Below, one piece after another: positions 2,636 to 62,387 of a DNA stretch of 64,000 nucleotides. The notes under the pieces are model-generated. The model searched no databases. It was given only the letters and a program-made list of their open reading frames with translations, and was not told the origin of the DNA. The DNA is from Zygnema cylindricum (lineage: Eukaryota > Streptophyta > Zygnematophyceae > Zygnematales > Zygnemataceae). The translations under genes were made by a program, and so were the position numbers. The stretch is taken from NCBI GenBank assembly GCA_037447655.1, contig JBBHKE010003061.1, positions 1 to 64,000 of the forward strand, read 5' to 3'. The first letter of the stretch is position 1; the number at the start of each line of letters is the position of its first letter.

Positions 2636-3685
2636 TGTAGAAATTAATGGTCTTTTAAAGTATTTTCTAGGTCTGAATAGAAATAAGAAAGAAGCCGAGG
2701 CAGTCTACCTCTAACTTCTCTTTCCAACTCTCAAACTTGTCGCAGTCACTGAGAAATTGGAGAGGGAGCTAGAGCCATGGCTACCTAGGCTATCGAGAGG
2801 TTTACGGGAAAATATATTTTAGTTAGGGGTTTAATTTACTAAAAGGTATGTGCTGGCCACAGGATTTGATCCTGGTACCTACGCAGACAACCGGTAGCCG
2901 GTAGCCCTAGCCGTTAAGTCTAGAAGTAGTGTTACATATCATAGGGTTTGATAATAATTTAAACATTTATACGTAAAACAGTTCATTTAACTATAACTGA
3001 TTACGGGAGACATATATCCAGTAAATGTAAAAGTACGGATTCCGGTACGGATAAGAAACGAATACCGCGCATTTATTTCTTTAGTGAAACGAATATCGCG
3101 CATGTATTTATTACGGCAACGATTAAATGTGAATTTAATCGGACGGCCGGAATTAACGCCGAGATCGCGGAAGAGGATTTCGGCGGTATGTGGTCATCGC
3201 CACATCTGAAGACACGTGGCGGAATGACATTGGAGCACGACATCTCCGAGGATTAAGGGAGCGAATCCGGACATACCACATGCCGACATTTAGGCCATGT
3301 TGTACAATGACCGTACATAAAGTACACCGGCAGCTGTACTTTTGTGTACGAAACTGAAATCTGATTGGCTCCGTACATCAGTAGATAGAGTCTGCGAGAG
3401 AGATAGGATTTAGAAAAATTAGAAGATAGGACCCTCTCTCCCAGAGAGCTTGTATACAAAAGGTAAACTTTGACCCTCTATAACTTACTGCTCAGGGGAG
3501 CAAATTCAGATATTTTTTTTGCTATCGACTCAGGGGAGTCTTGTCTTCACAATGGTGAAGTTGGTCAGAGTTTTTGTGTGCCAGAGTGGTAGTTATTTTT
3601 GCTGAAACACAAAGGGGTCAGGGTTATCCTAGAGGCTTCTTAAAAGCTGTCCACTCTGAGGACTTATGGAGATCTCATAGTTTCA
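2636..3685 (+). repeat. 5' LTR of Copia A1
   Basis: Boundaries were set by comparison with the 3' copy and with the LTR at 23972-25025: identity starts at TGTAG and stops at TTTCA. The LTR carries an antisense tRNA-like module (2841-2922), a G-box-like ACACGTGGC at 3212-3220, and a GTAC-rich region with inverted repeats near 3297-3352. Near its end an ATG opens the gag leader frame, but in this copy that leader has a stop (TAG at 3678-3680). Confidence 0.92.
2841..2922 (-). promoter_or_regulatory. Antisense tRNA-like (Pol III type) module in LTR A1
   Basis: Read on the minus strand: an A-box-like TTAACGGCTAGGGC (2904-2917), then a T-arm-like CAGG, loop ATCAAAT, CCTG containing a perfect B-box core GATCAAATC (2862-2872), then TTTT at 2841-2844. 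Order and spacing are those of a tRNA gene with internal promoter and Pol III terminator, but on the strand opposite to the retroelement. The 3' LTR repeats it (B box 8263-8273, A-box-like 8311-8324). Activity is inferred, not shown. Confidence 0.6.
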
Positions 3686-3700
3686 GGTTATGGGCCCACC
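3686..3700 (+). other. Primer-binding site, half-tRNA initiator Met type
   Basis: GGTTATGGGCCCACC follows the LTR with no gap. Its complement, GGTGGGCCCATAACC, is the anticodon stem-loop of plant initiator tRNA-Met as I know that tRNA, not its 3' end. The ATG in the site pairs with the CAU anticodon and is also a gag codon. The same 15 bases follow LTRs at 25026, 60400 and, on the other strand, 14968, 22497 and 42467. Confidence 0.88.
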
Positions 3701-6700
3701 CTCTAGGGTACCAATCTTTAATAGAACTGGCTTCATATACTGGGAAAGTATGATGATAGGAGCTCTATGCGAAAAAAGGTTTTGGGGAATAGTGAGTGGA
3801 CGATTGGGGCGCCCATCAAGTCTTGGAATTCCTCCAGGGTTTGGAGGAAGCAGATTCACCAAGAAAGAGGATCCACCTTCAACGGAGGAAACAAAAGAAG
3901 GAGAGGTGGTGGACAAAGGAAGGGAGAAGGAGGCGACCACACGAATAGCAACTGGTTCGGCATTCATGTCACCTATTCCGAGGAACGAGGAGAATGATAC
4001 TGAAACCTGAGACTTCAACAATATGGCGGCAAAGAAGTTCATCCTACGCCATCTTACTCACGGACTTGCATGTCCTCATTTGCAGGTAGAAAGGGCATCC
4101 GATCTTTGGATGGCTCTCATAAAGATGTACCGAAGTGGTACGATTCAGCAACAACAGTTGGCTGATAAAAAAGTTAAGGAGTATGTATATAAAGGGGGGA
4201 AGATGTTGGATTTTTGCAATGAGCTTGCTACACTCTTCATGGAGCTAGAGAGTGCGGGAAAAGATTTTAGTGAAAATGAAATGGTTAATTGTTTACTGAT
4301 GAAGTTACCTGATGAGTTCGAGAACATAGTCAACCGTGTGCAGGACTTGCCGGACTCAAGGTGGATATGGAACTCAGTGGTAGGGATGATTCTCGTTTGG
4401 GAGAATACAATTCAGATCCGAAGGGGAGGAAAGAGTGGCCAAGCCTTGGCAACTGAAACCGATTGGAGGAACAAGGATTCTCGGAAAGCGGTCGAAAACT
4501 ATAGGGGAAGGGAGCAGAAAAATCAGACCGACGAGTTCGGACTAAGGGCTCCCAAAGGTTTATGTCATTTTTGTAAGAAACTTGGGCACTATATGGCAGA
4601 GTGCACTAAGCTAACCGAGCTTCGGTTAAAGGAGGGGCAGACCGGTGGTACCCCGAGAGGAAAGAAAAAGGCCTTTGTGACACAAGTACATGAGGCGGAA
4701 TCCGAGGACGAGGACGATGAGCTCCTTTTAGATGAGGAGTTGGAGGCGAAAAACGAGGTCGAAATACCACGAAGGCAGAAATGTGCTTACGATGGATTGA
4801 AAGGTGAAGTAGGCTGGATTGTAGATTTAGGTGCCTCCATGCACATGTGTAAGGATAGACACCTGTTCACTAAAATAAGAAATATTCCCACCGTAGAGAT
4901 AGAGTACGGGGATGGGAGGATAGTCACCACTACTCTTGTAGGATCGATAGATTTGAAAGTGTTAGTAGAAGGAAAGACATCCATATTAACATTCTCCGAT
5001 GTATTGTTTATTCCGGAGCTGAACAAAAACCTTATCTCTACATCCGTATTAGATGATAAGGGTTTTTTTACTAGCACTAGGGAAGGAGTCTTTACTGCCA
5101 GTTTTGAGGAGGATGTCTATTTCATTGCTGAGAAAGGTAGCCATGGGATGTTTAGGCTGGTATTAAGTAATGAAAAGAAGAACCTACATTATGCTGGTGT
5201 TCATGATATTATGATGTGGCATAAGAGGCTTGGGCATGTGAATCTAGACAAGTTAAGAGAGATGAAAAAGATGGGAGTGGTGGAAGGGATTAAGTTTAGT
5301 GAGAATGATAATGTAAGTGATTGTAGTGGATGTGCTCAAAGTAAAACACACAGATTACCTTTTCTTAAAACAACCACCGATATGGGAGAAAAAATTCTAG
5401 ATCTAGTACAAACAGATATTTGGGGACCAGCTAAAGTGCCCTCACCGGGGGGGAAGAGATTTATAATGACTATCACTGATGATTGGGCTCGGTATTCCCG
5501 AGTGTATATTTTGAAAAACAAGTCCGAAGCTCAAGATTGTTTTAGACAATATAAAGCATGGAGCGATAAACTTCATGAAACTCCAATCAAGAGAATAACG
5601 AGTGACAATGGTGGAGAGTATACTTCTAACCATTTTGAGGATTTTCTGAGGGAAGATGGGGTCCAACACCAAAAGACAGTTCCAGAAAAGCCCGAATATA
5701 ATAGGGTAGCTCAAAGGTTAAATAGAACACTAAGTGATAGTGCTAGAAGTATGTTGTCAGATAAAAAAATAGGAAAAAGGTTTTGGGCAGAAGCAATGAC
5801 CTGTGCTAATTACCTCAAAAATAGAGTTCTTACTTCAGCTATAAAAGATCAAACACCTTATGAGAGATAGACAGGTCGGAAACCAGACATATCTCACTTA
5901 AAGGTTTTCGGCAATTAAGTATTCAATCTAGATACAGATCGGTCTAATTGGAAGTTGGATCCTAAAGGAAAACCGGGATACTTATTAGGATATGATGAGG
6001 ATGTTAAAGGATATAGAGTTAATGATCTAAAAAGGGAAGATATAATCTTAGTAAAGCATCTTGTAGTTATGGATGAAGGAAAGTCTGTGGATCCCTTCAA
6101 ATATACAAAGTCAGTAAAAATCAGATTTGAGTCAGAAAATTCCGATGACTTTGAGTTCCCTAACTATCCAGGTTTTAGAGAAGATGACATTCTTGCAGAT
6201 ACAAATCAGACCGTAAAGGACTCGGCTGTGGAAACTCCAGTGACAACTCTACTCGAAGCGGAAGACGTGGTGGAAATTGATTCGGAATCAAGGGATAAGG
6301 GAGAAGCCGAGTTTGTTCCAAAGAATCCACGAGAACCATCTATTCTGGCCTCAGATTTTGAGGGGGGAAAGAGAAGTAGCAAAAGACTACAAGAAAAACA
6401 GGTTAAAAACAAGGTAACTAAACTATCTCATCAAGATGAACCTCAAACTTATGGAGAGGCGATGTCTTGTCCAGAAAGAAACCGGTGGAAGACAGCCATC
6501 AATGAGGAGATGGCCTCAATTATGGCAGCTGATACTTGGGAGCTGGTGAATTGTCCACCTAACCAAAAACCAATCGGTTGTAAGTGGGTTTTCAAATTAA
6601 AACTGAACCCAGAAAACACAATCGAGCGCTACAAGGCCCGATTAGTAGCAAAGGGATTTACACAAAAAGAGGGAATTGACTACGAGGAAACCTTTGCCCC

Positions 6701-8023
6701 GGTGGTTAGATTTCCCTCCGTCGGCATACTTCTCAGTCTGGCAGCAGCAAAATACATGGAAGTGCACCAGATGGACATCAAGACAGCCTTTTTGCATGGA
6801 GAATTGGAAGAGGAGATCTTCATGCGAAAACCCGAAGGGTTTGTGGAGGAAGGAGAGGAGAGTAAGGTATGCCGGCTGATTAAATCTCTTTATGGTTTGA
6901 AACAAGCGCCTCGACAGTGGAATAAGAAGCTTGATGAGTTTCTTACCGGTCTGGGATATATCCGGATCAGCTCAGATCACTCAATTTATGTTTTCGAAGA
7001 TGAGGAAGGTTTTACATTTATTGCAATTTATGTTGATGATTTGCTTGTTTTAAGTAAATCAATGGAAAAAATTAATAAACTGAAAACCGATCTTAAGGGG
7101 AGATTTGAAATGAAGGATATGGGGGAAGCAAAATATATTTTGGGAATTCAAGTAGAGAGAGACCGAAAAAGAAAAATTATAAGATTGACTCAAAAGCAAG
7201 CAATAGGGAACATGCTTGAAAAATTTCAAATGGATAAAGCTAATAGTTATACAACTCCAATGGAGTTGAAGAAGGGAAGTGAGGGGAGTGAGGAAGAAGG
7301 AGTCATAGTCTTAGACGAGGAATTATCTCCTGAAGAACATAAGTTCATGCAGACTATTCCTTACAGGTAAGTAGTGGGAAGTCTAATCTATTTTATGAAT
7401 TGTACCCGGCCGGATTTAGCTGCAGCTGTAGGTGTGCTGAGTAGAAGTCTAAATGCTCCCACTAAGAGGGATTGGGAGGTAGCTAAGAGAGTCATTAGAT
7501 ACGTGATATGAACTAGGGATCTATGGTTGCATTTGGGTGGGGAGAATACTGACATCACTACTTGGAGTGATTCCAGTTATAGTGATGCTCCGATGAGGAG
7601 ATGCACTTCTGGATATGTATTATATGTGGGTGATGGGGCTTGCTGTTGGAGTAGCAAACAGCAAAAGGTTATTAGTCAGTCCACCATGGAGGCTGAGTAT
7701 ATGGCCTCTTGCTCTGCTGTAAAAGAATTGATGTGGGTCAAGTCTTTGCTTGGTGAGCTTGGTCACCTTAAGAGTGGTGTGCAGAAAATATTTAGTGATA
7801 ATCAGCAGCAATCGCTATTTCTGCCAATCCTAAACATCATTTTAAAGCTAAACACATGGACATTAGACTCAGCTTTGTTAGAGAGAAAGTAGAAAACAAA
7901 ATAATCAGTTTAGAGTACCGACCAGATAGTGAGATGGTAGCAGATATGATGACCAAACCTGTGCCTTCCCCTAAGCTAATTTTCTGCAGGGAAAAGTGTG
8001 GTCTGAAATTAAAGATTGACTAG
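3690..8023 (+). pseudogene. Copia gag-pol polyprotein of A1, inactivated
   Basis: Domains in order: gag; zinc knuckle CHFC...GHYMAEC (4563-4604, CX2CX4HX4C); aspartic protease at 4815 where the usual DSG reads DLG; GAG-pre-integrase MWHKRLGHVN (about 5214); integrase with the first two acidic residues, but the third catalytic residue, expected 36 after the second D, is Q instead of E; reverse transcriptase with YVDD (about 7029-7040); RNase H with STMEAEYMA (about 7680). In-frame stops fall at 4008 (from Trp), 5868, about 5916, 7368 and about 7509; a frameshift near 7805 disrupts the RNase H end. Protease and integrase each lost a key residue beyond the nonsense changes, so this copy cannot supply either activity. 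Confidence 0.93.
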
Positions 8024-8036
8024 AAAATAAGGGGAG
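8024..8036 (+). other. Polypurine tract of A1
   Basis: AAAATAAGGGGAG directly precedes the 3' LTR. The same tract, or a one-base variant, lies before the LTRs of families F, D and E here, marking the plus-strand primer site. Confidence 0.85.
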
Positions 8037-9090
8037 TGTAGAAATTAATGGTCTTTTAAAGTATTTTCTAGGTCTGAATAGAAATAAGAAAGAAGCCGAG
8101 GTAGTCAAACTCTAACTTCTCTCTCCAACTCTCAAACTTGTCGTAGTCACTGAGAAATTGGAGAGAGAGCTAGAGCCATGGCTACATAGGCTATCCAGAG
8201 GTTTACGAGAAAATATATTTTAGTTAGGGGTTTAATTTACTAAAAGGTATATGCCGGCCACAGGATTTGATCCTGGTACCTACCGGCCGGCAGACAGCCG
8301 GTATCCGGTAGCTTTAGCCGTTAAGTCCAGAAGTAGTGTTACGTATCATAGGGTTTGATAATAATTTAAACATTTATACGTAAAACAGTTCATTTAACTA
8401 TAACTGATTACGGGAGACATATATCCAGTAAATGTAAAGTACGGATTCCGTTACAGATAAGAACGAATACCGCGCATTTATTTCTTTAGTGAAACGAATA
8501 TCGCGCATGTATTTATTACAGCTACGATTAAATGTGAATTTAATCGGACGGCCGGAATTAATGCCGAGATCGCGGAAGAGGATTTCGGCGGTTTGTGGTC
8601 ATCGCCACATCGGATGACACGTGGCGGAATGACATTGGATCGCGGCATCTCCGAGGATTAAGGGAGCGAATCCAGACATACCACGTGTCGACATTTAGGC
8701 CATGTCGTACAGTGTCCGTACAGAAAGTACACCGGCAACTGTACTTTTGTGTACGGAAATGAAATGTGATTGGCTCCGTATATCAGTAGATAGAGTCTGT
8801 GAGAGAGATAGGACTTAAAAAAATTAGAAGATAGGACCCTCTCTCCCACAGAGCTTCTGTACAAAAGGTCAACTTTGACCCTCCATAACTTACTGCTCAA
8901 GGGAGCAAATTGAGAGATTTTTTTTGTTATCAACTCAGGGGAGTCTTGTCTTCACAAGGGTAAAGTTGGTCAGGTTTTTTTTCTGCCAGGGTGGCAGTTA
9001 TTTTTGCTGAAACACAAAGGGGTCAGGGTCATCCTAGAGGCTTCTTGGAAGCTGTCCACTCTACGGACTTATGGAGGTCTCAGAGTTTCA
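8037..9090 (+). repeat. 3' LTR of Copia A1
   Basis: Matches 2636-3685 nearly base for base with scattered substitutions. It keeps both G-box-like sites (ACACGTGGC near 8619, CCACGTGTC near 8681) and the antisense tRNA-like module. It ends GAGTTTCA at 9090, where the sequence changes to unrelated host DNA. Confidence 0.92.
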
Positions 9091-12460: not shown

Positions 12461-13426
12461 TATAACTCTGTGACCTCCATTGGTCCACAGAATGTCTAGT
12501 TTATATGAAGCCTCTAAGACAATATTTTCCCTAGTGAATTTCAGACTGAATAAGTGCCACCATGGCAGGCAAAAACTCTAACCAAGTATACCCTTGTGTA
12601 GCCTGGACTCCTTTGAGTCTGAAGCAAAAAAAAATGCTGAAACTGCTCCCGTGAGCATTAAGTTATGGGTGGCCAAATATGGCCTATAAATACAAAAGGT
12701 CTCTGAAAGAGAGGTGCCTCAAAAAGTCTAAGCCCCAAACTCCCTCTCAAAATCTCCTACTACGAGTGTAACTAGCCAATCAAAAGACTGTAAGGTACAA
12801 GAAGGTTCAGGTATCGCAGTACTTCTTGTACGGCCATAGTACGGCATGGCCGCCCAGCTAACGTGTGTCATTTCCTGAGCGGTAGTTGCTCTGCTTGTAA
12901 TATCTGTTGTCCAATCACGACTTGCCACGTGTCATCCGCCGACTTTGGTTTGGAAACCGCCAAATGCTTATTCCGGTATTCCGGCTGTATTGTGAGCCAT
13001 CGATCGCGAACGACATTTGATTTCGTCCGTTGAAATTCAATGTTGTTTCATTTATTTCGTGTGGTACAATATTTCCTGTGGTCCTGCACATTTCATGTTT
13101 ACTTTGGGCCGTAATATGTTAAATGAAGTATGTTGCTGTGCAATATTATAAATTCAAATCAATGAAATTATATCTAACGCGTCATCAAGACCTAATGGAT
13201 AAGGCGAACGGCTATGCCGTACGGCATTTATCCAGAAGGTCATAGGATCAAATTGTTTCCTCTACACCAAGCTTTCGCAACGGGCTTTGTCTCCTTCTCC
13301 CTATGCCTATCACCTTGTCAACCTAAGGCAGCCGTGGCTGCCAGTCTTTAATGACTACGACAAGTATAAGGACTCTAGGTAGACCATAGCCCAAAAGAGA
13401 TAGAGTATAAAATACCCTTTTAAACA
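12461..13426 (-). repeat. D-array LTR 1 (3' LTR of unit D1)
   Basis: Ends on the upper side at AACA before CTCCCCTTATTTT (the polypurine tract in reverse) and on the lower side at TATAACTCTG, a variant of the usual TGAAACTCTG. It resembles the E LTR at 61574-62481. The tRNA-like module is at about 13188-13260 on the plus strand, with CCTAATGGATAAGGCG as in plant tRNA-Arg D arms and a degenerate B box AGGATCAAAT. Confidence 0.8.
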
Positions 13427-14387
13427 CTCCCCTTATTTTCTAATCTATCTTTTGCTTTAGTCCACACTTCTCCCTAGAAAATACTAACTTGAGAGAAGGA
13501 ACCGGTTTAGTCATGATGTATGCTACCATCTCCCCATCTGTTCTATATTGTCGTGCATAAGTGAGAAGCAAGGTGAACTATGCATCCTAACCAACCAAGT
13601 CATGCTCACAATCATATATACAAACGAAAAATAAATGAAAACAGAAAAATAGATATACATCGTGCAAAAGAATAAAAGTGAGTATCCCATAGGGAAATCA
13701 TTAATTTTATCTTTTCCGATTTCACTTATCGATCCTATATCTGACTTTCTCATTTCTAAGTCATACACTCTACACTTCTCGACATCCTCAAACACCTCGT
13801 CTCTCTTTACTTCCTTTAAACCTCCAAAAGCACATAATTGTTTCCGTGGAATTTTTGTGTGCTTTTCTCTTTTTCCCATATTACTGATGCGGAGAAGCTC
13901 CAACATATCTTCACCCTCTTTCTCCTCTTCCCGTTCTTCCTCCTAATCAACATTCCAACTTCTAAATTCTTCCAAACAAGGGCATTCCTATATATAATGA
14001 CCCGGTTCCCTACAAAAGAATCAAACCCCCTTTTTCAAAGCTCTCTATTCTTTTCCTCTCCCTCTCTTTCTACCAAAGTTCCGATAAGATTTACCTTTGT
14101 CTTTCTTCCTCTCATCACGCTTCCGCTCGTCACCGTTGTTCCTCTCATCACACTTCTACCAATCACCACCAGCTGTAAATGCATTTACCTTGTCACTTCC
14201 CCTACGAAGCTCCAAATTGCTTTCCCTCACAAGAATTATCCCCATGGTAAAGCTCCAAGTCCATGAGGAGCCATCCATTGCCTCCATACGACAAATGATG
14301 TTTTCGAACTCATCTGGGAGTTTCATAAGGAGTGTATTAATCTTCCTCTCCTCAGATTCTACATATACCGCACTAGCAAGCTCAACA

Positions 14388-14512
14388 TGTAGAAATTAAT
14401 GGTTTTTAAGTATTTTCTAGGTCTGAATAGAAATAAAGAAGCCGAGGCAGTCTACCTCTAACTTCTCTCTCCAACTCTCAAACTTGTCGCAGTCACTGAG
14501 AAATTGGAGAGG
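14388..14512 (+). repeat. 125-bp 5'-terminal piece of an A-family LTR inside D1
   Basis: Starts exactly at the A LTR terminus TGTAGAAATTAATGG and stops after GAAATTGGAGAGG. Compared with D2 and D3, about 150 bp of gag sequence is missing at the right junction. Because the outer edge is the true LTR end, this is best read as an A insertion later deleted together with flanking D1 sequence. Confidence 0.85.
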
Positions 14513-14953
14513 AGTGCTTCCCATATCTCTAAAGACTTCATTAAGTTTACAAGAGTGATAGCTATGGACTTAGACACGTTTCTAAGTGTGAGATGCTTTG
14601 CTATAGTGTTTTTGTATTCCCATATTTTTTTGTCGTTTTCTTTGGTTTTAATCCCCACAAGTGGAACCATAGTCAAGAGCTTAGCTCCCCTCACCATCAG
14701 TGTTCCTTTTCCTTTCTCCCATTTTCCCCTTTCCATGGCAATGATTTTCCCTTCACTTTCCTTTGCATCTGAACTCCGATTAATTTTCTCGGTAACCCCA
14801 GATGATTCTCCATAGTGATTTCCTCCAAAGCCTTGTGGAGGAAACCTCACTTTTCATGAAACAATTCCCCATAAGTGCTTATCGAAAAACAATCCCTCCA
14901 TCATAAATCCCTTATAAGTGAAGCGTGTTTCATCAAACATAGGCACCGTAGAT

Positions 14954-14968
14954 GGTGGGCCCATAACC
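14954..14968 (-). other. Primer-binding site of D1
   Basis: GGTTATGGGCCCACC on the minus strand, abutting LTR 2. Same half-tRNA initiator-Met site as in A1. Equivalent sites are at 18061-18075 (one mismatch) and 22483-22497 (perfect). Confidence 0.88.
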
Positions 14969-16139
14969 TGAAACTCTGTGTGCTCCATTGCCCACAGAAA
15001 TCGCAAATCCAAAAGAAGCTTATCTAGATAGTGCCGACTCCAAGTTGATATAAACCCAAATGATTGACCCCTTGACAATCAAAAACCCATTATAGTGTCA
15101 CCCTTGTGAAATAAGACTTTTTGTGTGCTTAGTTCCACCACAGAATGCAAAGTTAGAATATGAGTTTTGGACACATTCACCCACTTTGACTTTCCCTTAT
15201 AAATGTAGCCACCCTGGAAGGAAAAAACTCTGACCGACTACACCCCTATAGCCTAGACTCCCTTGAGTCCGCAACAAAAAGAATCACTAAAAATGGTCAA
15301 GTAAATTGATAGTTATAGTTTCCCAAAGTTAGCCTTTTATACAAGGTGCTCTCTCAGAGAGGCGACTACCTACCAGAAATATTCTAAGTCTAATTCCCTC
15401 TCTAAAACTCTATCTACTGATTTACGACACCAATTAAATTACTGTGCCGTACAAAAAAGTACAGGTGTCCGTGTACTTTCTGTACAGCCATCGTACGACA
15501 TGGCCAAAATGTCGACACATGTCATATCCGGATATGTTCTTGTAATCTCCGAAGTTGCCGCGATCCAATATCATTGTTCCACGTGTCATCCTATGTGGCA
15601 ACGAGCGCAAACGGACGAGATCCTCTTTCGTGATCTTGGCATCCTTTTTGGTCGTCCGATCGAAACTAAATTTCAATCGTAGCCGTCATAATTACTTGCG
15701 CGGTATTTGTTTCGCTATCGAAACAAAGTGTGCGGTATTTGTTTCTTCTCCGTACTCTATATAACTGAATCTATGCATCCCGAATGAAGTTCCAGCTGAA
15801 TGAATCAGTCTACGTGTAAGTATTTATATAATTATTAAACCCTATATCATTCAACACTAGTCTTAGACTAAACGGTTAAGGCTAACGGCTAGTTAGACAA
15901 ACGATAGGTACTCGGATCAAATCTTCGATCCGTCAAAATCATTTAGGTAACTTTATCAAGGTTTGCCTTCCTGTCCTCTTTGGACAGCCTACGCAACAAT
16001 GGATCTAACTCTTCCTCAGTCTTCAGTGACTGCGACAAGTGTGGGGACTTGAGTGAAGAGTTAGAGGCAGGTTGTTAGTGTCTCCTCTTTGCTTTTTATT
16101 TTACAATCTCTAGATCTAGAAAATACTTGAATTTCAACA
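14969..16139 (-). repeat. D-array LTR 2, shared by units D1 and D2
   Basis: Serves as 5' LTR of D1 (primer-binding site on its low side) and as 3' LTR of D2 (CTCAGCTTATTTT, a polypurine variant, on its high side). The tRNA-like module is at about 15865-15936: A-box-like CGGTTAAGGCTAA and B box GGATCAAATC, on the plus strand and hence antisense to the element. Confidence 0.85.
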
Positions 16140-16183
16140 CTCAGCTTATTTTCTAGTCTACTTTACTTTCAACTCCCATCAAA

Positions 16184-16250
<67 letters not shown>

Positions 16251-18060
16251 CCTTTCCTTTTTCATTTTTCCTTCATGAAGCTTCAAGGGAATTCCTTTAT
16301 ATTTAAGAAAGTGTATAAGATGACCAAAAATAATTTCATCTTGTTGATTATACATTTTATTTTGCATGCCACTTTTCAAAAACCCGAGCAAATATTTTAT
16401 CCACCTCCTCCCCTTTTCATCCAACCAAAATCCACTTTCCCCTTTGCATGTCCAACAGTCAGCCCCTTCCCCAATGTGCAACACATACCCGGATGATAAC
16501 CCTTTTACAGGCACATCTTCACAAGTGACATCATACCAAGTAGTGATGTCAAATCCACCCCCCGTCAAATATTCCAAAAAATCACTAGTCCTCACTAAGT
16601 TCCTTGTGAAATCTACATCTTCCGAACTCATATTGTCATCCATGATAATTATCTCATTTTCTGAATTTACCTCACTCTCTCCCATGGATTTCTTTCCATT
16701 ATTGCTTTCTATTTTTACTCCCAAAAAATATTTATCCTCCCTTTAGCATATATTCATATATTCCTCTTCTCCCCTATCCTTTAGAACCACTTCTAATTTC
16801 ACTTCCCCCTTTTCTTCGAAATCTGTTGAAGTCTCCCTTTACGACCAGTTTTCTGTTTCCTAAATATCTATGAAACTATCCTCAATATTTTGAACTCCCT
16901 CAAGTATCTCCTCTCTCTTTACTTCCCTTATACCTCCAAAAGCACACTGTTGTTTACGTGGAATTTCTGTGTGTTTTTCTATCTTCCCCCTAGTACCGAT
17001 GCGGAGAAGCCCCAACATATCTTCATCCTCTTTATCCTCTTCCCCTTCTTTCTCCTCATCCACATTCAAACTTCTAAGTTCTTCCAAACAAGGGCATTCC
17101 TCTATATAATGACCCGGTTCCCTACAAAAGAAGCAAACCCCTTTTTTCAAAGCTCTCTATTCTTTTCCTCTCCCTCTCTTTCTACCAAAATTCCGATAAG
17201 GTTTACATTTGTCTTTCTTCCTCTCATCACGCTTCCGCTTGTCACCGCTGTTCCTCTCATCACGCTTCCGCCAATCACCACCAGCTGTAAATGCATTTAC
17301 CTTGTCACTTCCCCTACGAAGCTCCAAATTGCTTTCCCTCACAAGAATTATCCCCATGATAAAGCTCCAAGTCCATGAGAAGCCATCCATTGCCTGCATA
17401 CCACAAATGATGTTTTCGTACTCATGTGGGAGTTTCATAAGTAGTGTATTAATCTTCCTCTCCTCAGATTCTACATATCCCGCACTAGCAAGCTCAACAT
17501 ATAGCGCAGCAATATCATTGCAAAACTCTATCAGGCTACCGCCTTTATAAATATAGGCATCTATTTATTGCTTTACTAATTGCTGCCTTTGAATAGTCTC
17601 ACTCTTATAAATCTGACTTAGTGCTTCCCATATCTCTAAAGACTTCATTAAGTTTACAAGAGTGATAGCTATGGACTTAGACACGTTTCTAAGTGTGAGA
17701 TGCTTTGCTATAGTGTTTTTGTATTCCCATATTTTTTTGTCGTTTTCTTTGGTTTTAATCCCCACAAGTGGAACCATAGTCAAGAGCTTAGCTTCCCTCA
17801 CCATCGGTGTTCCTTTTCCTTTCTCCCATTTTCCCCTTTCCATGGCAATGATTTTCCCTTCACCTTCCTTTGCATCTGAACTCCGATTGATTTTCTCGGT
17901 AACCCCAGATGATTCTCCATAGTGATTTCCTCCAAAGCCCTGTGGAGGAAACCTCACTTGTCCTGAAAGAGTTCCCCATAAGTGTTTATCGAAAAGCAAT
18001 CCCTCCATGATAAATCCCCAATAAGTGAAGCGTGTTCCATCAAACATAGGCACCGTAGAT
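16140..18060 (-). pseudogene. Deleted Copia internal region D2 (gag fused to RNase H relic)
   Basis: Gag from MSPPSTVPMFDGTRFTYWGF (18071 downward), stop TAA at 17565-17567, gag continuing with YIYKGG, zinc knuckle CFFCREPGHYIEEC (about 17097-17138), an acidic stretch, PRKQQCAFGGIREVKREE, then a jump into decayed RNase H (16724-16179: DITTWYDVTCEDVPVKG, SSGYVLHIGEGADCWTCK). Catalytic RNase H residues and the STMEAEYMA block are gone. The same TAA occurs in D3, so the stop is older than the split of the two copies. Confidence 0.85.
16190..16247. repeat. (TA)n microsatellite, about 28 units
   Basis: Uninterrupted TA repeat inside the 3' end of the D2 internal region; it explains the Ile-Tyr run at the end of the minus-strand frame. 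Confidence 0.98.
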
Positions 18061-18075
18061 GGTGGGCTCATAACC

Positions 18076-19256
18076 TGAAACTATGTGTGCTCCATTGCCC
18101 ACAGAAATCGCAGATCCAAAAGAAGCTTATTTAGATAGTGCCGACTCCAAGTTGATATAAACCCAAATAATTGACCCCTTGAAAATTAGAAACCCATTAT
18201 AGTGTCACCCCTGTGAAATAAGACTTTCTGTGTGCTCAGTTCCACCACAGAATGTAAAGTTAGAATATGAGTTCTGGACAACATTCACCCACTTTGAATT
18301 TCCCTTAAAAATGCAGCCACCCTGGTGGGCAAAAACTCTGACCGACTACACCTCTGTGTAGCTTCGACTCCCCTGATTCCGCAGCAAAAAGAATCACTAA
18401 AAATGGTCAAGTTAATTGATAGTAATGAATGGTCAAAGATGACCATTTGTATAAGAACTCTCTTGGAGAGAGGCTGCTACCTACTTAATTTTCTAAGTCC
18501 TATTTTCTCTCTAAAACTCTATCTATTGATATACGGCACCAATCAAATTACTGTATCGTACAGAAAAGTACAGGTACCGATGTACTTTCTGTACAACCAT
18601 CGTACAACATGGACAAAATGTCGACACGTGTCAAATCGGGATTTGTTTTCGTAATGTCTGGAGTTGCCGCAATCAAATGTTATCGCGCCATGTGTCACAA
18701 AATGTGGCGATGATCTTAAACCGCCGCGATTGTCTTCCGCGATCTCGGCATCCTTCGTGGCCGTCAGATCAAAACTAAATTTCAATCGTAGCCATCATAA
18801 ATACTTGCGCGGTATTTTTTTCGCTATCGAAACAAAATGCGCGGTATCTGTTTCTTTTCCGTACCGTACTCCGTACTCTACATAACTAAATCTATGCATC
18901 CCGAATGAAGTTCCAGTTGAATGAATTAGTATACGTGTAAGTGTTTATATAATTATTAAACCCTTTATCATTCAACACTATCTTAGACTAAATGGTTAAG
19001 GCTAACGGCTAGTTAGACAAATGGTAGGTATTCAGATCAAATCTTGGATCCGTCAAAATCTTTTAGGTAACTCTATCAAGGTTTGCCTTTATGTCCTCTT
19101 TTGACAGCCTAGGCAGCGATGGATCTAACTCTTCCTCAAGTCTTCAATGACTGCGACAAGTGTGGGAACTTGAGTGAACAGTAAGAGGCAGGTTGTTAGT
19201 GTCTCCTCTTTGCTTTTTATTTTACAATCTGTAGACCTAGAAAATACTTGAATTTA
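18076..19256 (-). repeat. D-array LTR 3
   Basis: 5' LTR of D2. The upper end reads ACTTGAATTTAAAAGGAATG instead of ...TTCAACA, so the last few bases were lost where it meets the reverse-transcriptase fragment. tRNA-like module at about 18985-19056 with TGGTTAAGGC and AGATCAAATC, followed by TTTT. Confidence 0.82.
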
Positions 19257-19461
19257 AAAGGAATGTCATCTTGATATCCATCTGGTGTACTTGCATATCT
19301 TCTGCTGTCGCTATATTGAGAAGTATTCAAACGGAGGGAAACTTGACGACTAGAGCAAAAGTTTCCTCGTTGTCAATTCCTTCTTTTTGGGTAAATCCTT
19401 TTGCCACTAACCGAGCCTTGTATCGCTCTTTGGTGTTATCTAAGTTAAGTTTCAATTTAAA
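19257..19461 (-). pseudogene. Orphan reverse-transcriptase fragment between two LTRs
   Basis: Minus-strand translation gives [30 protein letters not shown], a stop in place of the residue after FPSV, then HQMDIKMTF: the N-terminal fingers of Copia reverse transcriptase. It is the only enzyme-domain piece in the array besides RNase H relics, and shows that an element with pol once stood here and was deleted from both sides. Confidence 0.88.
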
Positions 19462-20643
19462 TGAAACTTAGAGACCTCCATTGGCCCTCAGAGTAAGCAG
19501 ATCCAAAAGAAGCTTATCTAGATAGTGCCGACTCCAAGTTGATATAAACCCTAATGACTGACCCCTTGACAATCACAAAACATATTGTAGTTTCACCCCT
19601 GTGAAATAAGACTTTATGTGTGCTCAGTTCCACCACAGAATGCAAAGTTAAAATATGAGATTTGGACACATTCACCCACTTTGACTTTCCCTTAGAAATA
19701 CCGCCACCCTGGCAGAAAAAAACCTTGACCGACTTCACCCCTGTGTAGCCTGGACTCATCTGTGTCCGCATCAAAAAGAATCACTGAAAATGGTCAAGTA
19801 AATTGATAGTTATGGCTGCCCAAAGTTAGCCATTTATACAAGGTGCTCTCTCAAAGAGAGGGTCCTATCTGCCAAATTTTTCTAAGTCCTATCTCCCTCT
19901 AAAACACTATCTACTGAAGTACGGCACCAATCAAATAACTATGTTGTACAGAAAAGTACAGGTGTCGGTGTACTTTCTCTACGACCATCGTACAACATGG
20001 CCAAAATGTCGACACATGTCATCTCCAGATTCGTTCACGTAATCCTTGGAGATGCCGCAATCCAATGTCATTTTGCCACGTGTCATCCTATGTGGCGATG
20101 ACCGAAAACCGCCGAAATCTTCTTTCGCGATCTCGGCATCTTTTTCGGCCGTCCGATCAAAACAAGTTTTCGATCGTAGCCGTCATAAATACGTGCTCGG
20201 TATTTGTTTCGTGTTCAAAACAAATGTCGGTATCCGTTTCATATACATTAAACCGTACTCCGTACTATCTATAACAGTATCTATGCACTACGTATATATT
20301 TCTAGTTAAATGATAAAGTCTAAGTGTAACTAACTAAATAATTATCAAACCTTATATGTCTTAATACTAGCGCTAGACTAAACGGTTAAAGCTATCGGCT
20401 ATGATTGTTTCACAGACGGCAGGTACCAGGATCAATTCCTGGGTCCGTCAACTAACTTTTGGTAAGTCTACCTAATTTACCCCCTGTCTTCTCTAGAGAG
20501 CTTAGGCAGCCATGGCTCTAGCTCCCTATCCAGCCTTCAGTGACTACAACAAATGTGGGGGCTTGGAGAGGGGAGTTAAAGGCAGATTGCCTCTGCCTTT
20601 TTCTATCCTATTTACAGACCTAGAAAATACACAAATATCAACA
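19462..20643 (-). repeat. D-array LTR 4 (3' LTR of D3)
   Basis: Starts TGAAACTTAGAGACC and ends ATCAACA before the tract CTCCCCTTATTTT. It carries the best-formed tRNA-like T arm of the window (20426-20442). Confidence 0.87.
20375..20455 (+). promoter_or_regulatory. tRNA-like module in D LTR 4 (antisense to element)
   Basis: A-box-like CGGTTAAAGCTA (20383-20394) and, 34 bases on, a full T-arm shape: stem CCAGG (20426-20430), 7-base loop ATCAATT, stem CCTGG (20438-20442), preceded by GGTA. The B-box core GATCAATTC fits GWTCRANNC. TTTT follows within about 15 bases. The loop begins ATCRA as in eukaryotic initiator tRNA rather than TTCRA. Whether it is transcribed is unknown. Confidence 0.6.
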
Positions 20644-22497: not shown

Positions 22498-23679
22498 TGA
22501 AACTCTAAGACCTCCATTGGCCCTCAGAGTAAGCAGATCCAAAAGAAGCTTATCTAGATAGTGCCGACTCCAATTTGATAAAAACCGAAATGACTGACCC
22601 CTTGACAATTACAAACCCATTATAGCGTCACCCCTCTGAAATAAGTCTTCTTGTGTGCTCAGTTCCACCACAGAATGCAAAGTTAGAATATGAGATTTAG
22701 ACACATTCACCCACTTTTGACTTTCCCTTAGAAATGCTGCCACCCTGGCAAAAATAAACACTGATCGACTTCATCCTTGTGTAGCTTGGACTCCCCTGAG
22801 TCCGCAGCAAAAAGAATCACTGAAAATGGTCAAGTAAATTGATAGTTATGGTTGCCCAAAGTAAGCCATTTATACTAGGTGCTCTCTCAAAGAGAGGGTC
22901 CTATCTGCCAAATTTTTCTAAGTCCTATCTCCCTCTAAAACACTATCAACTGAAGTACGGCACCAATCAAATAATTGTGTCGTACAAAAAAGTACAAGTG
23001 TCGGTGTACTTTCTGTACGGCCATCGTACGACATGGCCAAAATGTCGACACATGTCATCTCCAGTTTTGTTCACGTAATCCTCGGAGATGCCGCAATCCA
23101 ATGTCATTTTGCCACGTGTCATCCTATGTGGCGATGACCGCAAACCGCCGAAATCTTCTTCCGCGATCTCGGCATCCTTTTCGGCCGTCCGATCAAAACA
23201 AGTTTTCGATCGTAGCCGTCATAAATACGTGCGCGGTATTTGTTTCGTGTTCGAAACAAATGTCGGTATGAGTTTCATATACATTAAACCGTACTCCGTA
23301 CTATCTATAACTGTATCTATGCACTACGTATACATTTCCAGTTTAATGATAAAGTCTACGTGTAACTAATTAAATAATTATCAAACCTTATATGTCTTAA
23401 TACTAGCGCTAGACTAAATGGTTAAAGCTACCGGCTATGATTGATTGACAGACGGCACGTACCAGGATCAATTCTTGGGTCCATGAACTATTTTTTTGTA
23501 AGTCTACCTAATTTACCCCTTATCTTCTCTAGAGAGCTTAGGCAGCCATGGCTCTAGCTCCCTATCCAGCCTTCAGTGACTACACGAAGTGTGGGGGCTT
23601 AGAGAGGGGAGTTAGAGGCAGACTGCCTCTGCCTTTTTCTATCCTATTTACAGACCTAGAAAATACACAAATATCAACA
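22498..23679 (-). repeat. D-array LTR 5 (5' LTR of D3)
   Basis: Abuts a perfect primer-binding site at 22483-22497. TATAAATGG on the minus strand (22866-22874) is a plausible TATA box. tRNA-like module at about 23410-23486 with TGGTTAAAGCTA, GGATCAATTC and then a T7 run. Ends ATCAACA at 23679. Confidence 0.87.
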
Positions 23680-23971: not shown

Positions 23972-25025
23972 TGTAGAAATTAATGGTCCATTTAAATTAT
24001 TTTCTAAGTCTAAATAGAAATATAGAAAGAAGTCGAGGCAGTCTACCTCTAACTTTTCTCTCCAACTCTCAAACTTGTCATAGTCACTGAGAAATTGGAG
24101 AGGGAGCTAGAGCCATGGCTACCTAGGCTATCCAGAAGTTTACGGGGATTATATATTAGTAAGGGGTTTATTTACTAAAAGGAAAGTGCCGGCTACAAGA
24201 TTTGATCCTTGTACCTACCAGCCGGCAGACAACCGGTAGCCGGTAGCCTTAGTCGTTAAGTCTTTATCGAGTGTTACGTAATATAGGGTTTGATATTTAA
24301 TTAAATATTATCAAGTAGGAAAATTCATTTAACTATAACTATTTACGGGAGACATAGATCCAAAATTGTAAGGGTACGGATTGCTGTACGGATAAGAAAC
24401 CAATACCGCACATTTGTTTCTTCATAGAAAAGAATATCGCACATTTATTTATTACGGCTACAATTAAATATGAATTTAATCAGACGGCCGGAAGTAACGC
24501 CGAGATCGCGGAAGAGGATTTTGGCGATTTGTGGACATCGCCACATCGGATAACACGTGGCGGAATTACATTGGATCGCGGCATCTCAGAGGATTACGGG
24601 AGCAAATCCGGACATACCACGTGTCAACATTTAGGCCATGTCGTACAGTGTTCGTACAAAAAGTACACCGGTAGCTGTACTTTTATAACGAAACTGCATT
24701 CTGGTTGGCTCCGTACATCAGTACATAGAGTCTGTGAGAGAGATAGGACTTGGAAAAATTAGGAGATATGACCCTCTCTCCCAGAGAGCTTCTGTACAAA
24801 AGGTCAACTTTGACCCTCCTTAACTGACAGCTCAGGGGAGCAAATTCAGAGATTCTTTTTGCTATCGACTCATAGGAGGCTTATCTTCACAAAGGTGAAG
24901 TTGGTCAGCGTTATTGTATGTCAGGGTGGTAGTTGTTTTTGCTGAAACACAAAGGGGTCCGGGTTTTCTTAGAGGCTTCTTGGAAGCTGTCCACTCTGAG
25001 GACTTATGGAGGTCTCAGAGTTTCA
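23972..25025 (+). repeat. 5' LTR of A2
   Basis: Same limits and length as the A1 LTRs. Its U5 end keeps the intact leader ATG: the frame opens at 25006 with MEVSEFQ inside the LTR and runs on through the primer-binding site as VMGPP. Antisense tRNA-like module at about 24195-24262 (B box AGGATCAAATC; A-box-like TTAACGACTAAGGC). G-box-like sites near 24554 and 24620. Confidence 0.92.
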
Positions 25026-32199: not shown

Positions 32200-32592
32200 A
32201 CCATTCCGGGTAATTGGCGCCAATACGGGCCGTCCGATTAAATGTTCCGGGCGTTTACGTTCGTTAAAATTGGGTCGTATAGAATGTTTTGTTTGTTCGT
32301 ATATTCTATGTCAGTTTCACATTGTTAAATGATTTTATTTTACAAGTACTCTTTATGGAATTACAGCACACCACATACGTATCGATCCAACGACATTAGG
32401 GCTGCTGGTAGATATGTTGTAGGACCAAGGTTTAAATCCTGGTTGATACACCATTTTTGTTAAGTACTGCCTTGACTTTTTTCTTCTTGTCTCTCCGGCT
32501 ACCAGGAAGGCAACCATGGTTTCTTTCTCTCTCTCTCTACATTCTAACATACTCGAACAAAAGACATAAGAATTAGAATAGATTTTACAACA
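32200..32592 (-). repeat. LTR remnant of an additional Copia-related family
   Basis: Shares the layout of the D LTRs but little exact sequence: a tRNA-like T arm (CCAAGGTTTAAATCCTGG, 32425-32442), T5 (32453-32457), GTTAAGTACTGCC, GGCAACCATGG, a CTCTCT run, then an end in ACAACA at 32592. No polypurine tract follows, so it looks like a solo or truncated LTR. The lower boundary is not resolved. Confidence 0.5.
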
Positions 32593-45427: not shown

Positions 45428-45590
45428 AACTTGACGAAAAATATTTAAGAAAAACACTTAAGAAAAACACTTACGAAAAACACTTAAGAAAAGCACTTGG
45501 GAAAAACACATAAGGAAAACACATTTCAGAAAAACACTTATGAAAAACACTTACGGAAAACACTAAAAGAAAAACACTCAAGAAATACAG
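45428..45590. repeat. Tandem GAAAAACACTTAA repeat, about 17-bp unit
   Basis: About ten diverged copies inside the putative intron between the two fucosyltransferase-like exons. Confidence 0.8.
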
Positions 45591-45609
45591 TTAAGTTTCC
45601 TGAAATTAC

Positions 45610-45846
45610 CTTTCTATGAGGTCCGGAAGAAACCACCACCAATCTCCTCCCGGAAAACAAACTATAAGCGTAAGAGCTTTTAAATCCTCGAAGAGTGTTA
45701 CCGAGTCCCATTCTCGGATAAACAAGAATTACACTCGTTCCCGGGAGAGTTAAATCCTCATAAGAAGTAATTGGCGGTTCTAAGTCCCATCTCTTTCTAT
45801 TCCTTCCTTCCATTGGGAGAGAAGCTTCTCGACAAGCCTCCACATC
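45610..45846 (-). CDS. Fucosyltransferase-like gene, upstream exon
   Basis: Bounded by TTCTTAGTAG before and AAAG|GTAATT after on the minus strand. It encodes DVEACREASLPMEGRN, SYEDLTLPGTSVILVYP, then RMGLGNTLRGFKSSYAYSLF and SGRRLVV. The G-L-G-N-T-L-R-G-F block corresponds to the N-terminal G-L-G-N signature of plant and NodZ-like fucosyltransferases. It pairs with the last exon at 44083. The N-terminal anchor exon was not identified; hydrophobic frames at 45780-46061 are more likely intron. Confidence 0.55.
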
Positions 45847-48229: not shown

Positions 48230-48235
48230 GTACAG

Positions 48236-52045: not shown

Positions 52046-52055
52046 NNNNNNNNNN
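52046..52055. other. Assembly gap (10 N)
   Basis: Ten N bases. Sequence on the two sides may not be adjacent in the genome. Confidence 0.99.
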
Positions 52056-52524
52056 TGGCGAAATTCCGTTGGATTGTGGAATCTCCGGAGATTATGGCAC
52101 CGAATCCGGATTTGACATGTGTCGACATTTTGGCCATGTCGTACAATGTCCGTACATAAAGTACACCGACAGCTGTACTTTTACGTACGGAACTCAATTA
52201 TGATTGGTTCCGTACATCAGTAGATAGAGTTTGTGAGAGAGATAGGACTTAGAAAAATTAGAAGATAGGACCCTCTCTCCCAGAGAGCTTCTGTACAAAA
52301 GGTCAACTTTGACCCTCCATAACTTACTGCTCAGGGGAGCAAATTCAGAGATTCTTTTTGCTATCGACTCAGGGGAGTCTTCTCTTCACATGGGTGAAGT
52401 TGGTCAGAGTTTTTGTTTGCCAAGGTGGCAGTTATTTTTTCTTAAACACAAAGGGGTCAGGATTATCCTAGAGGCTTCTTGGAAGCTGTCCACTCTGAGG
52501 ACTTATGGAGGTCTCAGAGTTTCA
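52056..52524 (+). repeat. 3' part of an A-family LTR
   Basis: Matches about 3215-3685 and ends exactly at GAGTTTCA. No primer-binding site follows; next comes a B-family LTR. It is therefore the 3' LTR or solo LTR of an A insertion whose left part lies in or beyond the gap. Confidence 0.9.
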
Positions 52525-52934
52525 AATATAGCACAAAACACCTTAAACTGCACTTAGTGCTCTCATTTCCTTAACTCTGTGTAGAATGTACATTTTGTGT
52601 CGAATTGATCAATCCTAATTGAACTAAATACTCAAAATATCTAGAAAACATCTTAAACGTATGTACAGGGTTCACCTAAATATATACTAACAAAATTCAA
52701 AGTACTTGGACCAAAATTGTCTAGTAACAATATTTAGACCCAAAAAATCCAGGAGATATGTTTCACGTCTAAATTCATAGGCGGCCGTACACACTAATTT
52801 ACTCAAAGATAACTATTCCAATAGATACTAAAAATCCACACTAAATATATTTAATATTGAATAACTGGTGGTCCAAAAATATTCTAAGTCTTAGACTCTA
52901 ATTTCTAAGACTTATTAAAGCTTACTTTTTAATA
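52525..52934 (-). repeat. B-family LTR fragment
   Basis: Matches about 42700-43104 and ends at ...CTTACTTTTTAATA, the true outer terminus of family B. It is interrupted on the left by the A LTR. Its outer end abuts the gag of element F, so B inserted into F. Confidence 0.9.
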
Positions 52935-59579: not shown

Positions 59580-60399
59580 CACGACTGAAGAGTGACATAT
59601 GTCATTCTAAACAAAAGGTTGAGTTTGGCAAGACTCGAGCCACCTACCGGCACAGCGAGGCGTAGCTGTCAGCCCTAACCAGTCTGTCGTAGAAGTTCGT
59701 TGAAGTATATAGGGTATGATTAATATTTAAACTATGTTACGGTCGATAAACCGATTAACGGAAATACAAATGAAAAGACATAGAACCTATTATATACAGT
59801 GCGAATATAATACCGCACGGAACAAATGAATCGGACATTTGTTTCAACGGTCAATATTGAATGCCGTTATTTATCCAACGGCGCACATTATCGCCAAGAG
59901 CCCACAATGGTCACTTTGGCGTTTTATGACGTTGCATGACCTGGCGCCACATGGAGATATAACATTTGGTCGTGGGAATTACGAGGAACGTACAGAGGAG
60001 TGAAAAGTGGACTCGCGTCCGCTTAATGGCCTTGTCGTACAAAAAGTACATCGGCAGTAGTAGTTTCTTCTACTCTACAGTTATATTATTAGTTTGTATA
60101 GTCAGTGATAGGGGTTGTGAAAGGGAACTAGGACTTAGAAAAATTTGGTTGGTAGTCCTCTCTCTCGTAGAGAGTTTGTATAAATTGGCATGTTTGCCAC
60201 CCTAAAACTAATCGTCTAGTTGGGCATTTTCAGTGATTTTTTTTTGTACGGACTTACGGTAGTCCACGCTGCACACGGGTGTAGTCAGATTGACTATTTG
60301 TCTGCTTGGGCAGCAGTTGTTGCCATAGGAAGTGGGTTAGTTCACAACTATCTAGAGGCTTTCTGAATTCTGTAGTCCAATAGAGGACACATAATTTTA
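59580..60399 (+). repeat. Truncated 5' LTR of C
   Basis: Colinear with the 3' four-fifths of the F LTR. TATAAATT at 60179-60186. Antisense tRNA-like module at about 59614-59685 on the minus strand: CTGGTTAGGGCTG as A box and GGCTCGAGTC as B box (one mismatch), then CCTTTTG. The LTR ends TTTTA rather than TTTCA. Confidence 0.85.
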
Positions 60400-60414: not shown

Positions 60415-61573
60415 CTCTAGGGTGCCCATCTTCAATGGATGAGGGTTCATCTATTGGGAAGCCATGATAACAGAGGCTTTGAGCGAAAAACAATACTAGG
60501 GTATTGTTAGTGGACAAGTGAAACGTCCACCTCAAAGAACTCCACCAGGGTTCGGTGGAGTAAGGTTGGATGCAGCAGCATCTAATGCAGTAGAGGAGGC
60601 AAATGAGGGAGACAGCAATGTGTCCAAAAAGGGGAAAGAAAAGGAGACACCTTCTGCTCCCATTGCTCCTATTGCCACGGCTTTCGGAGCGGTGATCCTG
60701 AAGACCGCGGAGAACGACACCCAAATGCGAAAAGACACCAATATGGCTGCCAATAACTTAATTCTGAGACACCTCACTCAAGCTTTGGCAATCGTTCATC
60801 TTCAAGTTTACAAGGCCGAGGAGTTGTGGGTGAGTTTGATAGAGATCTATAGAGCTGGTACGATTCAGGAGTTCTAGTTGGCAGAGCAAAAGTTGGGAAA
60901 TTATACTTACAAAGGAGGAAAGATGTTAGACTACTGAAATGATCTTTCTTCTATCTATATCGAGATGGAGAGTGTTGGATGGACAGGTAGAATGAAAATG
61001 AAAGTTAACACTCTCATCATGAAGTTATCCGACGAGAATGAGAACATAGTGTACCGAGTTCAGGATATGACTGATAGTTCATGGAAGTGGAATACAGTGG
61101 TCCGGATGATTCTTGTGTAGGATAACACGATTGAGATCAGGAGAGGGGGAAAGAGCGTTCAAGCTCTATCCGCTGGAGGGGACAGGTGGAGACACGACCC
61201 GAAAAAAACCATAGAAAAGAGAAAGAATTCAGCTTGGAGGACCAAGACCCCCAAAGGGCTTTTGCCATTTTTGCAAAAAGTCGGGACACTTTATCGCGAA
61301 TTGTGTTAAGATGTTAGAGTTGAGGCTCCAAGAGAACAGTGGAGGGGGTTCTTGCGGAAGGAAGAAAAAGTCACTTATGGTCACAAAAGTACCAGGAGAA
61401 ACGGAGGACGAGGCCTCTGAGGAGGATGGGGAGCTTCTTCTTTACGAGAGTTTAGAGGAGAAGGAGATCCCTCGGAGACAGAAGTGTGCCCTTGGAGGAA
61501 TTCGGGAAGCTCCATAGGAAGAATGGATTATCAACTCAGCTGTATCAATGCATATGTGTCGTGAGAACGACCT
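60407..61573 (+). pseudogene. Gag and protease start of C, inactivated
   Basis: MGPPSRVPIFNG then an early stop. 60518-60877 holds a clean stretch of gag (APKAVAIGA region, NMAANNLILRHLTQALAIVH). More stops at 60876, about 60937 and 61120. Zinc knuckle CHFCKKSGHFIANC at about 61266-61307. 61311-61517 encodes the acidic linker and RRQKCALGGIREAP. Ends at MHMCRENDL of the protease where E inserted. Confidence 0.87.
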
Positions 61574-62387
61574 TGAAATTGTGTGGCCTCCATTGACCCA
61601 AAGAATGAGCAGCCTATGTAAAGCCTCTAGGATAATATTTTCCCCTTCCACTTTCCCATTGAATAAGTGTCGCCTAGGCACAAGAATATCATACCACTCT
61701 CACCTTTATAAGGATAAGACTCCTTTGAGTCAAACGCAAAAAGAATCACTGAATTTGCTCCCCTGAGCAATAAGTTTTGTCTTGTCAAAGAAGACCTTTA
61801 TACTTAGAAGCTCTCTTAGAGAGAGGTCCCTAAATATAACTAAGTCTTGTTCTACCTACTCACGACTACCTACTACTAAACCCTAATACAATAGGAACAC
61901 TTTATAGTATAAAAAGATACAAAGGGCGATGTACTTATTGTACGACCATTGTACGACAAGGTCTACAAGGTGACACTTGTCAAATCGGCACCATGGTTCC
62001 TCCTCCCATCTTCTCCAATATCAAATAATGTGGCGCCACGTTGCATTCCGTGAAGCTATTTCCAACGGCCGCCAAAAGCGCATTCCGCGTGGCGGCTGTA
62101 ACAAAGGTCGTCTAATCAATTAAATTTACACGGTTAAGATTTGCGTTCGTGCATGAATTGTTTCATATACGTCTCGTAGTCAGTTTGTTGTGAATTTGCC
62201 GTTGTGTCACACTTTAAGTACGTATCAAATCTCATACGTTCATTTTTTTAAGTGCCTTAATGGTTAAGGCGTCCGTATACATAGAATTCAGAGGTCGCAG
62301 ATTCAAATCAAGCGGAAGTCACAATTTTGGTGAAATGCCCCTCTACTTTAGTCTGCACTTTCTAAATAGCGGGGTAGCCATGGCGTG

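Follow-up and report, generated by a model that had tools for sequence, protein, structure and literature searches.

A candidate antisense, tRNA-derived RNA polymerase III promoter in the long terminal repeats of Copia elements of Zygnema cylindricum

A stretch of 64,000 nucleotides (nt) of Zygnema cylindricum DNA (assembly GCA_037447655.1, contig JBBHKE010003061.1, positions 1 to 64,000), here termed the window, was identified by self-comparison as a nest of Copia long terminal repeat (LTR) elements. Twelve related LTR copies were found to carry a tRNA-like module, in which an A-box-like and a B-box-like stretch are separated by a spacer and which in all twelve lies on the strand opposite to that of the element (Table 1); all counts given below concern this one window and these twelve copies. 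A tRNA ancestry of the module is supported by its sequence. We give an even chance to the explanation that a tRNA gene was captured backwards in the unique 3’ (U3) region of an ancestral Copia LTR and that its boxes are likely to still recruit TFIIIC and RNA polymerase III (Pol III).

Antisense A-box and B-box modules had been noted in these LTRs in a preliminary description of the window. All twelve places were reread and remapped, and a profile built with one group left out at a time recovered every held-out copy (12/12), with expect values (E) from 2.7e-18 to 0.0057 and the best non-module match never below 0.32. The weakest of the held-out copies were G32, E62 and F59. The LTRs were placed in seven groups (A to G), a grouping of our own based on self-comparison and alignment, and LTRs of different groups could be mutually aligned along the greater part of their length. 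An LTR profile made from 11 LTR pieces detected these 11 training copies and three further LTR stretches in the window, 14 in all. The module site was spanned by 12 of the 14, each of which contained the module, with partial copies at 14388-14512 and 52056-52433 stopping short of the site. No spanning LTR without the module, by which the ends of the insertion could be defined, was found among the LTR stretches of the window.

The distance between the starts of the A and B boxes was 48-58 bases in 11 copies and 37 bases in the remnant G32, which was anchored on a different motif. The box sequences were mostly of the form TAGACT...CGG (A box) and GGATCAAATC (B box). A run of four or more T (T4+), previously attributed to most copies, was confirmed in ten of the twelve, starting 14-17 nt past the B box. 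T loops were stated to begin with ATCRA in several copies; eight begin with ATCAA, with the remaining four beginning with GTCAA, CTCGA, TTCAA and TTTAA. A perfect 5-bp T stem, earlier assigned to the copy at 23410 (D4), was located in that at 20374 (D3), the former possessing one G-T pair.

As judged from the alignments, the modules are homologous, a single feature having been passed down to about seven related LTR groups rather than captured repeatedly. Multiple LTR groups do carry the module, as had been described for several Copia families, but these groups consist of homologous LTRs. Because of this homology, a common place and strand are to be expected from a single ancestral event and do not constitute independent evidence; the change of module strand with that of the element is what descent from homologous LTRs predicts.

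Table 1. Positions of the twelve modules and of features of the best-preserved element, A1, in the window
Feature	Position	Strand	A box	B box	T run	Held-out E	Remarks
A1_5	2841..2922	-	2922-2911	2872-2862	T4 2844-2841	2.3e-17	A1 5’ LTR
A1_3	8242..8329	-	8329-8318	8273-8263	T4 8245-8242	1e-17	A1 3’ LTR
A2	24177..24264	-	24264-24253	24208-24198	T4 24180-24177	2.7e-18	
C57	57250..57339	-	57339-57328	57282-57272	T5 57254-57250	2.3e-12	
F59	59613..59690	-	59690-59679	59641-59631	T4 59616-59613	6.9e-05	
B13	13187..13255	+	13187-13198	13245-13255	no T4 run	1.5e-08	
D1	15864..15924	+	15864-15875	15914-15924	TTT only, no T4	3.9e-17	
D2	18984..19064	+	18984-18995	19034-19044	T4 19061-19064	1.9e-15	
D3	20374..20460	+	20374-20385	20429-20439	T4 20457-20460	2.1e-16	
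D4	23410..23497	+	23410-23421	23465-23475	T7 23491-23497	8.6e-14	
E62	62252..62328	+	62252-62263	62300-62310	T4 62325-62328	0.00065	
G32	32392..32458	+	32392-32401 (A-box motif)	32429-32439	T5 32454-32458	0.0057	Remnant
5’ LTR of A1	2636..3685	+					TG...TTTCA; 92.8% identity to 3’ LTR 8037-9090
Primer-binding site of A1	3686..3700	+					Directly 3’ of 5’ LTR
A1 coding region	4023..7370	+					Two open reading frames (615 and 471 amino acids); Copia gag, gag-pre-integrase, integrase core, RVT_2

Resemblance to tRNA genes and conservation of the module

Both strands of the window were scanned for generic A and B boxes, with 20 shuffled windows as a control. Six modules were the six best-ranked matches. 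The top module score (23.7) exceeded the mean of the best shuffled scores (21.0), the other five (19.6) were below that mean, and A2, B13 and G32 were not among the 45 matches listed.

A 16-mer pattern of the D arm, covering B13 and E62, was searched for in prokaryotic genomes and viral contigs, with tRNA genes identified using ARAGORN. Among the matches listed, 20 of at least 119 in prokaryotic genomes fell in tRNA genes, together with 4 of 39 in viral contigs; the reversed 16-mer, used as a control in viral contigs, gave 0 of 41. The matches in tRNA genes were on the same strand at positions 10-12, with 23 of the 24 among those listed belonging to tRNA-Arg. The D arm of B13 was identical to that of many tRNA-Arg genes, and E62 could be aligned to a tRNA-Arg from the D arm to the T arm. 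The donor is likely to have been a tRNA-Arg-like gene. An origin from initiator tRNA, to which the T loops had first been likened, was not supported, given the match of the D arm of two copies to tRNA-Arg and the presence of A54 in only three of seven groups.

An independent panel of 46 distinct tRNAs lacking the D-arm motif, prokaryotic and viral only (from the retrieved loci and phage T5), was compared by alignment with all 110-nt windows on either strand of 11 LTRs (162-216 windows per LTR). By mean panel score the module ranked first in nine of the 11 LTRs, second in B13 and fifth in C57, and in all twelve copies this score was equalled by at most 1 of 100 shuffles. For the best single tRNA score, no shuffle of 100 was as high only in C57, D3 and E62. 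Opposite strands scored near or slightly above shuffles (for B13, 18.2 compared to 18.6 for the module). An initial panel of 56 tRNAs was discarded; 24 of its members carried the D-arm motif of the module (23 of these being tRNA-Arg), rendering the scores of B13 and E62 circular.

It is possible, though in our view doubtful, that the module is a dead scar, i.e. that a short interspersed element (SINE) head or tRNA pseudogene was inserted once in the ancestral LTR and copied passively, with its remnants reflecting descent. A single shared event would account for place and strand, the tRNA structure has been lost, tRNA finders recognise nothing, and the copies are few and all related. Conservation between groups argues otherwise (six groups were compared, with G32 outside the alignment). 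Identity was 0.717 for the B box and 0.645 for the A box, compared to 0.433 for the spacer, 0.394 and 0.503 for the flanks and a U3 mean of 0.457, placing both boxes among the best-kept stretches of U3. Drift of the boxes at the pace of the surrounding U3, which the preliminary description had named as a sign of a dead SINE scar, was thus not seen between the groups of the window. With both boxes at their own spacing, 0.5% of 588 U3 placements did as well; singly, the B box was equalled by 1.1% of U3 and 4.9% of whole-LTR placements, and the A box by 2.5% of those in U3. Retention of the module in every spanning copy also speaks against a scar, as does the T-run, which was the most widely kept antisense T4 site in U3 (five of six groups, nine of 11 copies in the 11-LTR alignment). 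The chance of a T4 run at 5-34 nt past the B box was 0.03-0.32 per copy. Within groups the boxes did not stand out (9.9% of U3 placements). Most change within groups should postdate insertion, and conservation between but not within groups is what selection on active elements would be expected to leave.

Among the residues universal in tRNAs, R15, G18, A21, T55 and A58 were invariant in 12 of 12 copies, and the 12 universal positions averaged 0.741, compared to 0.473 for other module columns (p 0.002). These invariant residues and a T-run at the place of a tRNA-gene terminator would not both be required of ordinary sense-strand enhancer or transcription-factor sites that had arisen in an old tRNA-like stretch without involvement of Pol III. 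This explanation is unlikely, even though the sense TATA-like box lies downstream of the module, which is itself in U3, and other U3 blocks (alignment columns 181-200, 355-374 and 627-656) are about equally conserved.

For plant tRNA genes, 50 nt of A+T-rich flanking sequence has been described, along with a CAA motif and poly(T) (PMC11700998). In most copies, the module resembles such genes in its A+T-rich upstream 50 nt and its downstream poly(T). For A+T content, the upstream 50 nt ranked within the top 5% of windows of the LTR in eight of twelve copies and at 9-10% in two more. A CAA was present within 50 nt of the start in all twelve copies, with a chance of 0.52-0.83 per copy.

RNA structure and a possible use of the module

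The D and T stems were paired in 70.4% of cells compared to 68.1% in shuffles, with 84 of 500 shuffles as high, and sliding the stem positions by one column gave nearly as much pairing. No covariation was detected in these stems (score reached by 57 of 500 shuffles), and no pair was predicted in the consensus fold by RNAalifold. Folding energy was low relative to shuffles in three of twelve copies (A1_3, z -3.5; D3, z -3.5; B13, z -5.1). Conserved hairpins were also considered and rejected: the best spacer hairpin was unusual for its LTR only in A1_3 (2.1%) and A2 (1.2%), and the T-arm hairpin was exceptional in no copy, with at least 12.8% of LTR windows doing as well. As stem pairing and a common fold are not kept, selection is unlikely to have acted on a structured RNA. 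Compensatory change has not preserved the pairing of the T and D arms, an outcome that for the T arm had been named in the preliminary description as pointing to a dead SINE scar, and the conserved tRNA-derived RNA raised there is unlikely. The promoter and terminator appear constrained and the RNA body appears to have drifted, which points to a promoter rather than an RNA function.

Several results weigh against a tRNA-derived promoter that is still in use. Over the whole LTR the case for the paired boxes was weaker (3.2% of 867 placements did as well), and the A box singly was matched by 12.8% of placements. T8 and A14 of the A box were poorly kept (0.19 each), universal residues inside the boxes alone were not clearly better conserved than the rest (p 0.078), and the similarly conserved U3 blocks listed above count on the same side. 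B13 and D1 possess no T4+ run, the A+T-rich upstream flank was not seen in E62 (29%) and G32 (20%), and a CAA within 12 nt of the start occurred in only three of twelve copies, which is about chance (0.14-0.26 per copy). By best single tRNA score the module was first in only six of 11 LTRs, ranking 6th, 11th, 15th, 34th and 48th in the others, and in six of twelve copies this score was matched by at least 12 of 100 shuffles. ARAGORN identified no tRNA genes in the window and Rfam gave no tRNA match there; a cloverleaf visible to tRNA finders, as in a functional tRNA gene, was thus not found. Furthermore, the copies are related and provide few independent observations.

Under the favoured explanation, a tRNA gene would have been captured in antisense in U3 of an ancestral Copia LTR. 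A tRNA gene is preferred to a SINE head in view of the spacing of the T-run, which lies beyond the tRNA part by as much as in tRNA genes; of the two sources initially suggested, tRNA ancestry is retained and the SINE head fits less well. TFIIIC and Pol III factors may bind the boxes of the module. Any Pol III transcript would be short (roughly 80-100 nt) and antisense, running towards the 5’ edge of the LTR and ending inside it, with the RNA as a by-product. The bound complex, some 500-600 bp ahead of the sense TATA-like box, may keep the outer LTR edge open or block silencing, and either could then permit RNA polymerase II (Pol II) to transcribe the element. Such a barrier or open-edge role would be the most likely use of the module. 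Both the presence of TFIIIC at boundaries and the pairing of Pol III with Pol II transcription have been discussed for mouse B2 SINEs (PMC8136502). Tentatively, and with odds that we place below even, a coding Copia lineage may keep a backward Pol III promoter and terminator, with no conserved RNA, as a mobile TFIIIC barrier shielding its own Pol II promoter. Pol III factors and short antisense RNA would be predicted at the LTR edges, and boxes acting as barriers would represent an anti-silencing device carried along by the element.

It is very improbable that the module serves as a landing pad, i.e. a Pol III site that draws related Copia integrase and steers insertions into old elements: insertions of Ty1 and Ty2 (Copia) fall within ~1 kb upstream of Pol III genes (PMC5911963) and the present window is densely nested with these elements, but the sole junction inspected (A2 start, 23972) lies ~0.5 kb downstream of module D4, not upstream.

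Host elements and their primer-binding site

The best-preserved element, A1 (2636-9090), is a coding element of 6.4 kb. A search for reverse-transcriptase relatives showed only distant Copia, with identities of 35-56%, among the 120 listed of 7970 scored candidates, and scans of the viral collection for such relatives and for the primer-site region were without matches. LTRs were about 0.9-1.2 kb in length. The distance from the LTR start to the B box ranged from 135 to 227 bp, the lowest value being that of F59, in which the beginning of the LTR is truncated. A sense TATA-like box was found at about 680-820 of the LTR in eight of 11 LTRs; in those of A1_3 and A2, GTACAAAAGG takes its place, and the TATA-like pattern was without a match in that of B13. 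The LTR remnant hosting G32 was mapped to 32024-32538 on the minus strand. Well-kept U3 blocks at columns 627-656 and 737-756 (near 3212-3235 and 3300-3330 in A1) are ACGTGG-type and GTAC-rich, reminiscent of the G-box and GTAC motifs of plants.

Seven copies of a 15-base primer-binding site were identified, at 3686, 25026 and 60400 (+) and at 42467, 22497, 18075 and 14968 (-). Six are identical and that at 18075 has one change. The site matches the anticodon region of plant initiator tRNA, and not the 3’ end of the tRNA, which suggests half-tRNA priming for these Copia elements. Half-tRNA priming has been reported for Drosophila copia and Ty5 (cited in PMC10886601) and, on the account given there, such a primer site is an already known Copia habit. 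The likeness lies in pairing with the anticodon region instead of the 3’ end; this precedent covers priming alone and nothing on the LTR module.

Four D-type LTRs were observed in an array at 13786-23679. Those at 22498-23679 and 19462-20643 resemble the LTR pair of a non-autonomous element with an interior of about 1.85 kb, a primer site at 22497 and a polypurine tract near 20655. Its open reading frame of 271 amino acids (20662-21477, minus strand) gave no Pfam match. A run of ten N is present at 52046-52055, and the A-type LTR fragment at 52056-52524 begins directly after it, its 5’ half being absent from the assembly. A second LTR type (37695-38339, 42468-43104 and 52525-52934) adjoins the same type of primer site (42467); it was not matched by the profile of the module-bearing LTRs and displays weak sense-strand A/B-box matches that are chance-like in appearance. 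Possible host-gene exons were noted at 44083-45843 (minus strand), together with an open reading frame at 35781-36617 (plus strand) with a weak Filamin-repeat match; protein searches with 44086-44622 and 35781-36614 gave no scored relatives.

Comparison with known systems

Cassandra is a small non-coding terminal-repeat retrotransposon in miniature (TRIM), in which a 5S rRNA promoter in the LTR takes the place of the Pol II promoter (PMC10853983). The module shares with it the candidate presence of a Pol III gene promoter type inside an LTR and differs in being tRNA-like and antisense; most of the present LTRs also retain a sense TATA-like box. A search of the window with E values up to 5 allowed gave no 5S rRNA match. 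The likeness to tRNA-derived SINEs (SINE2) consists of a tRNA head with A and B boxes and a decayed RNA structure; in contrast to these, the T-run begins 14-17 nt past the B box, a spacing like that of tRNA genes, and neither a SINE body nor a tail or target duplication was identified.

Helenus elements are TRIMs with tRNA-derived LTR parts from fungi, animals and one plant, placed in the proposed TRIMp3 (Kojima 2024, PMC10886601). They are described there as non-coding and 311-1263 bp in length, the first screen having kept elements under 1000 bp, with tRNA-derived SINEs proposed as their source; ‘not a few’ Repbase LTRs are said to hold tRNA-like parts. Their A box is given as TRGCY...YGG and their B box as GGTTC, a pentamer present in none of the twelve B boxes here, and an active Pol III promoter is expected, not proven. 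The present LTRs likewise contain a tRNA-derived stretch with A and B boxes, and fungal Helenus and their Copia partners also prime on the tRNA anticodon region, that of initiator tRNA included (PMC10886601). They differ in that the LTRs alone measure as much as noted above and A1 is a coding Copia, not a short non-coding TRIM. Many Helenus are seen by tRNAscan-SE, whereas ARAGORN and Rfam find nothing here. The module is also antisense, and the words antisense and opposite are absent from the text of PMC10886601.

No antisense tRNA-like unit in coding Copia LTRs was found to be reported among the papers listed from an open-licence library, as judged by titles and the starts of abstracts. Kojima considered it unlikely that a long stretch is shared between TRIMs and their autonomous partners, which need Pol II (PMC10886601, section 4.2). 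An antisense unit in the LTR of a coding Copia would be a way for both polymerases to share one LTR and a possible source of TRIMp3 elements. In the sources cited, Pol III promoters in LTRs have so far been described in tiny non-coding elements, whereas the candidate described here lies in a coding Copia; beside the known Cassandra and Helenus elements, the module would represent a variant in antisense.

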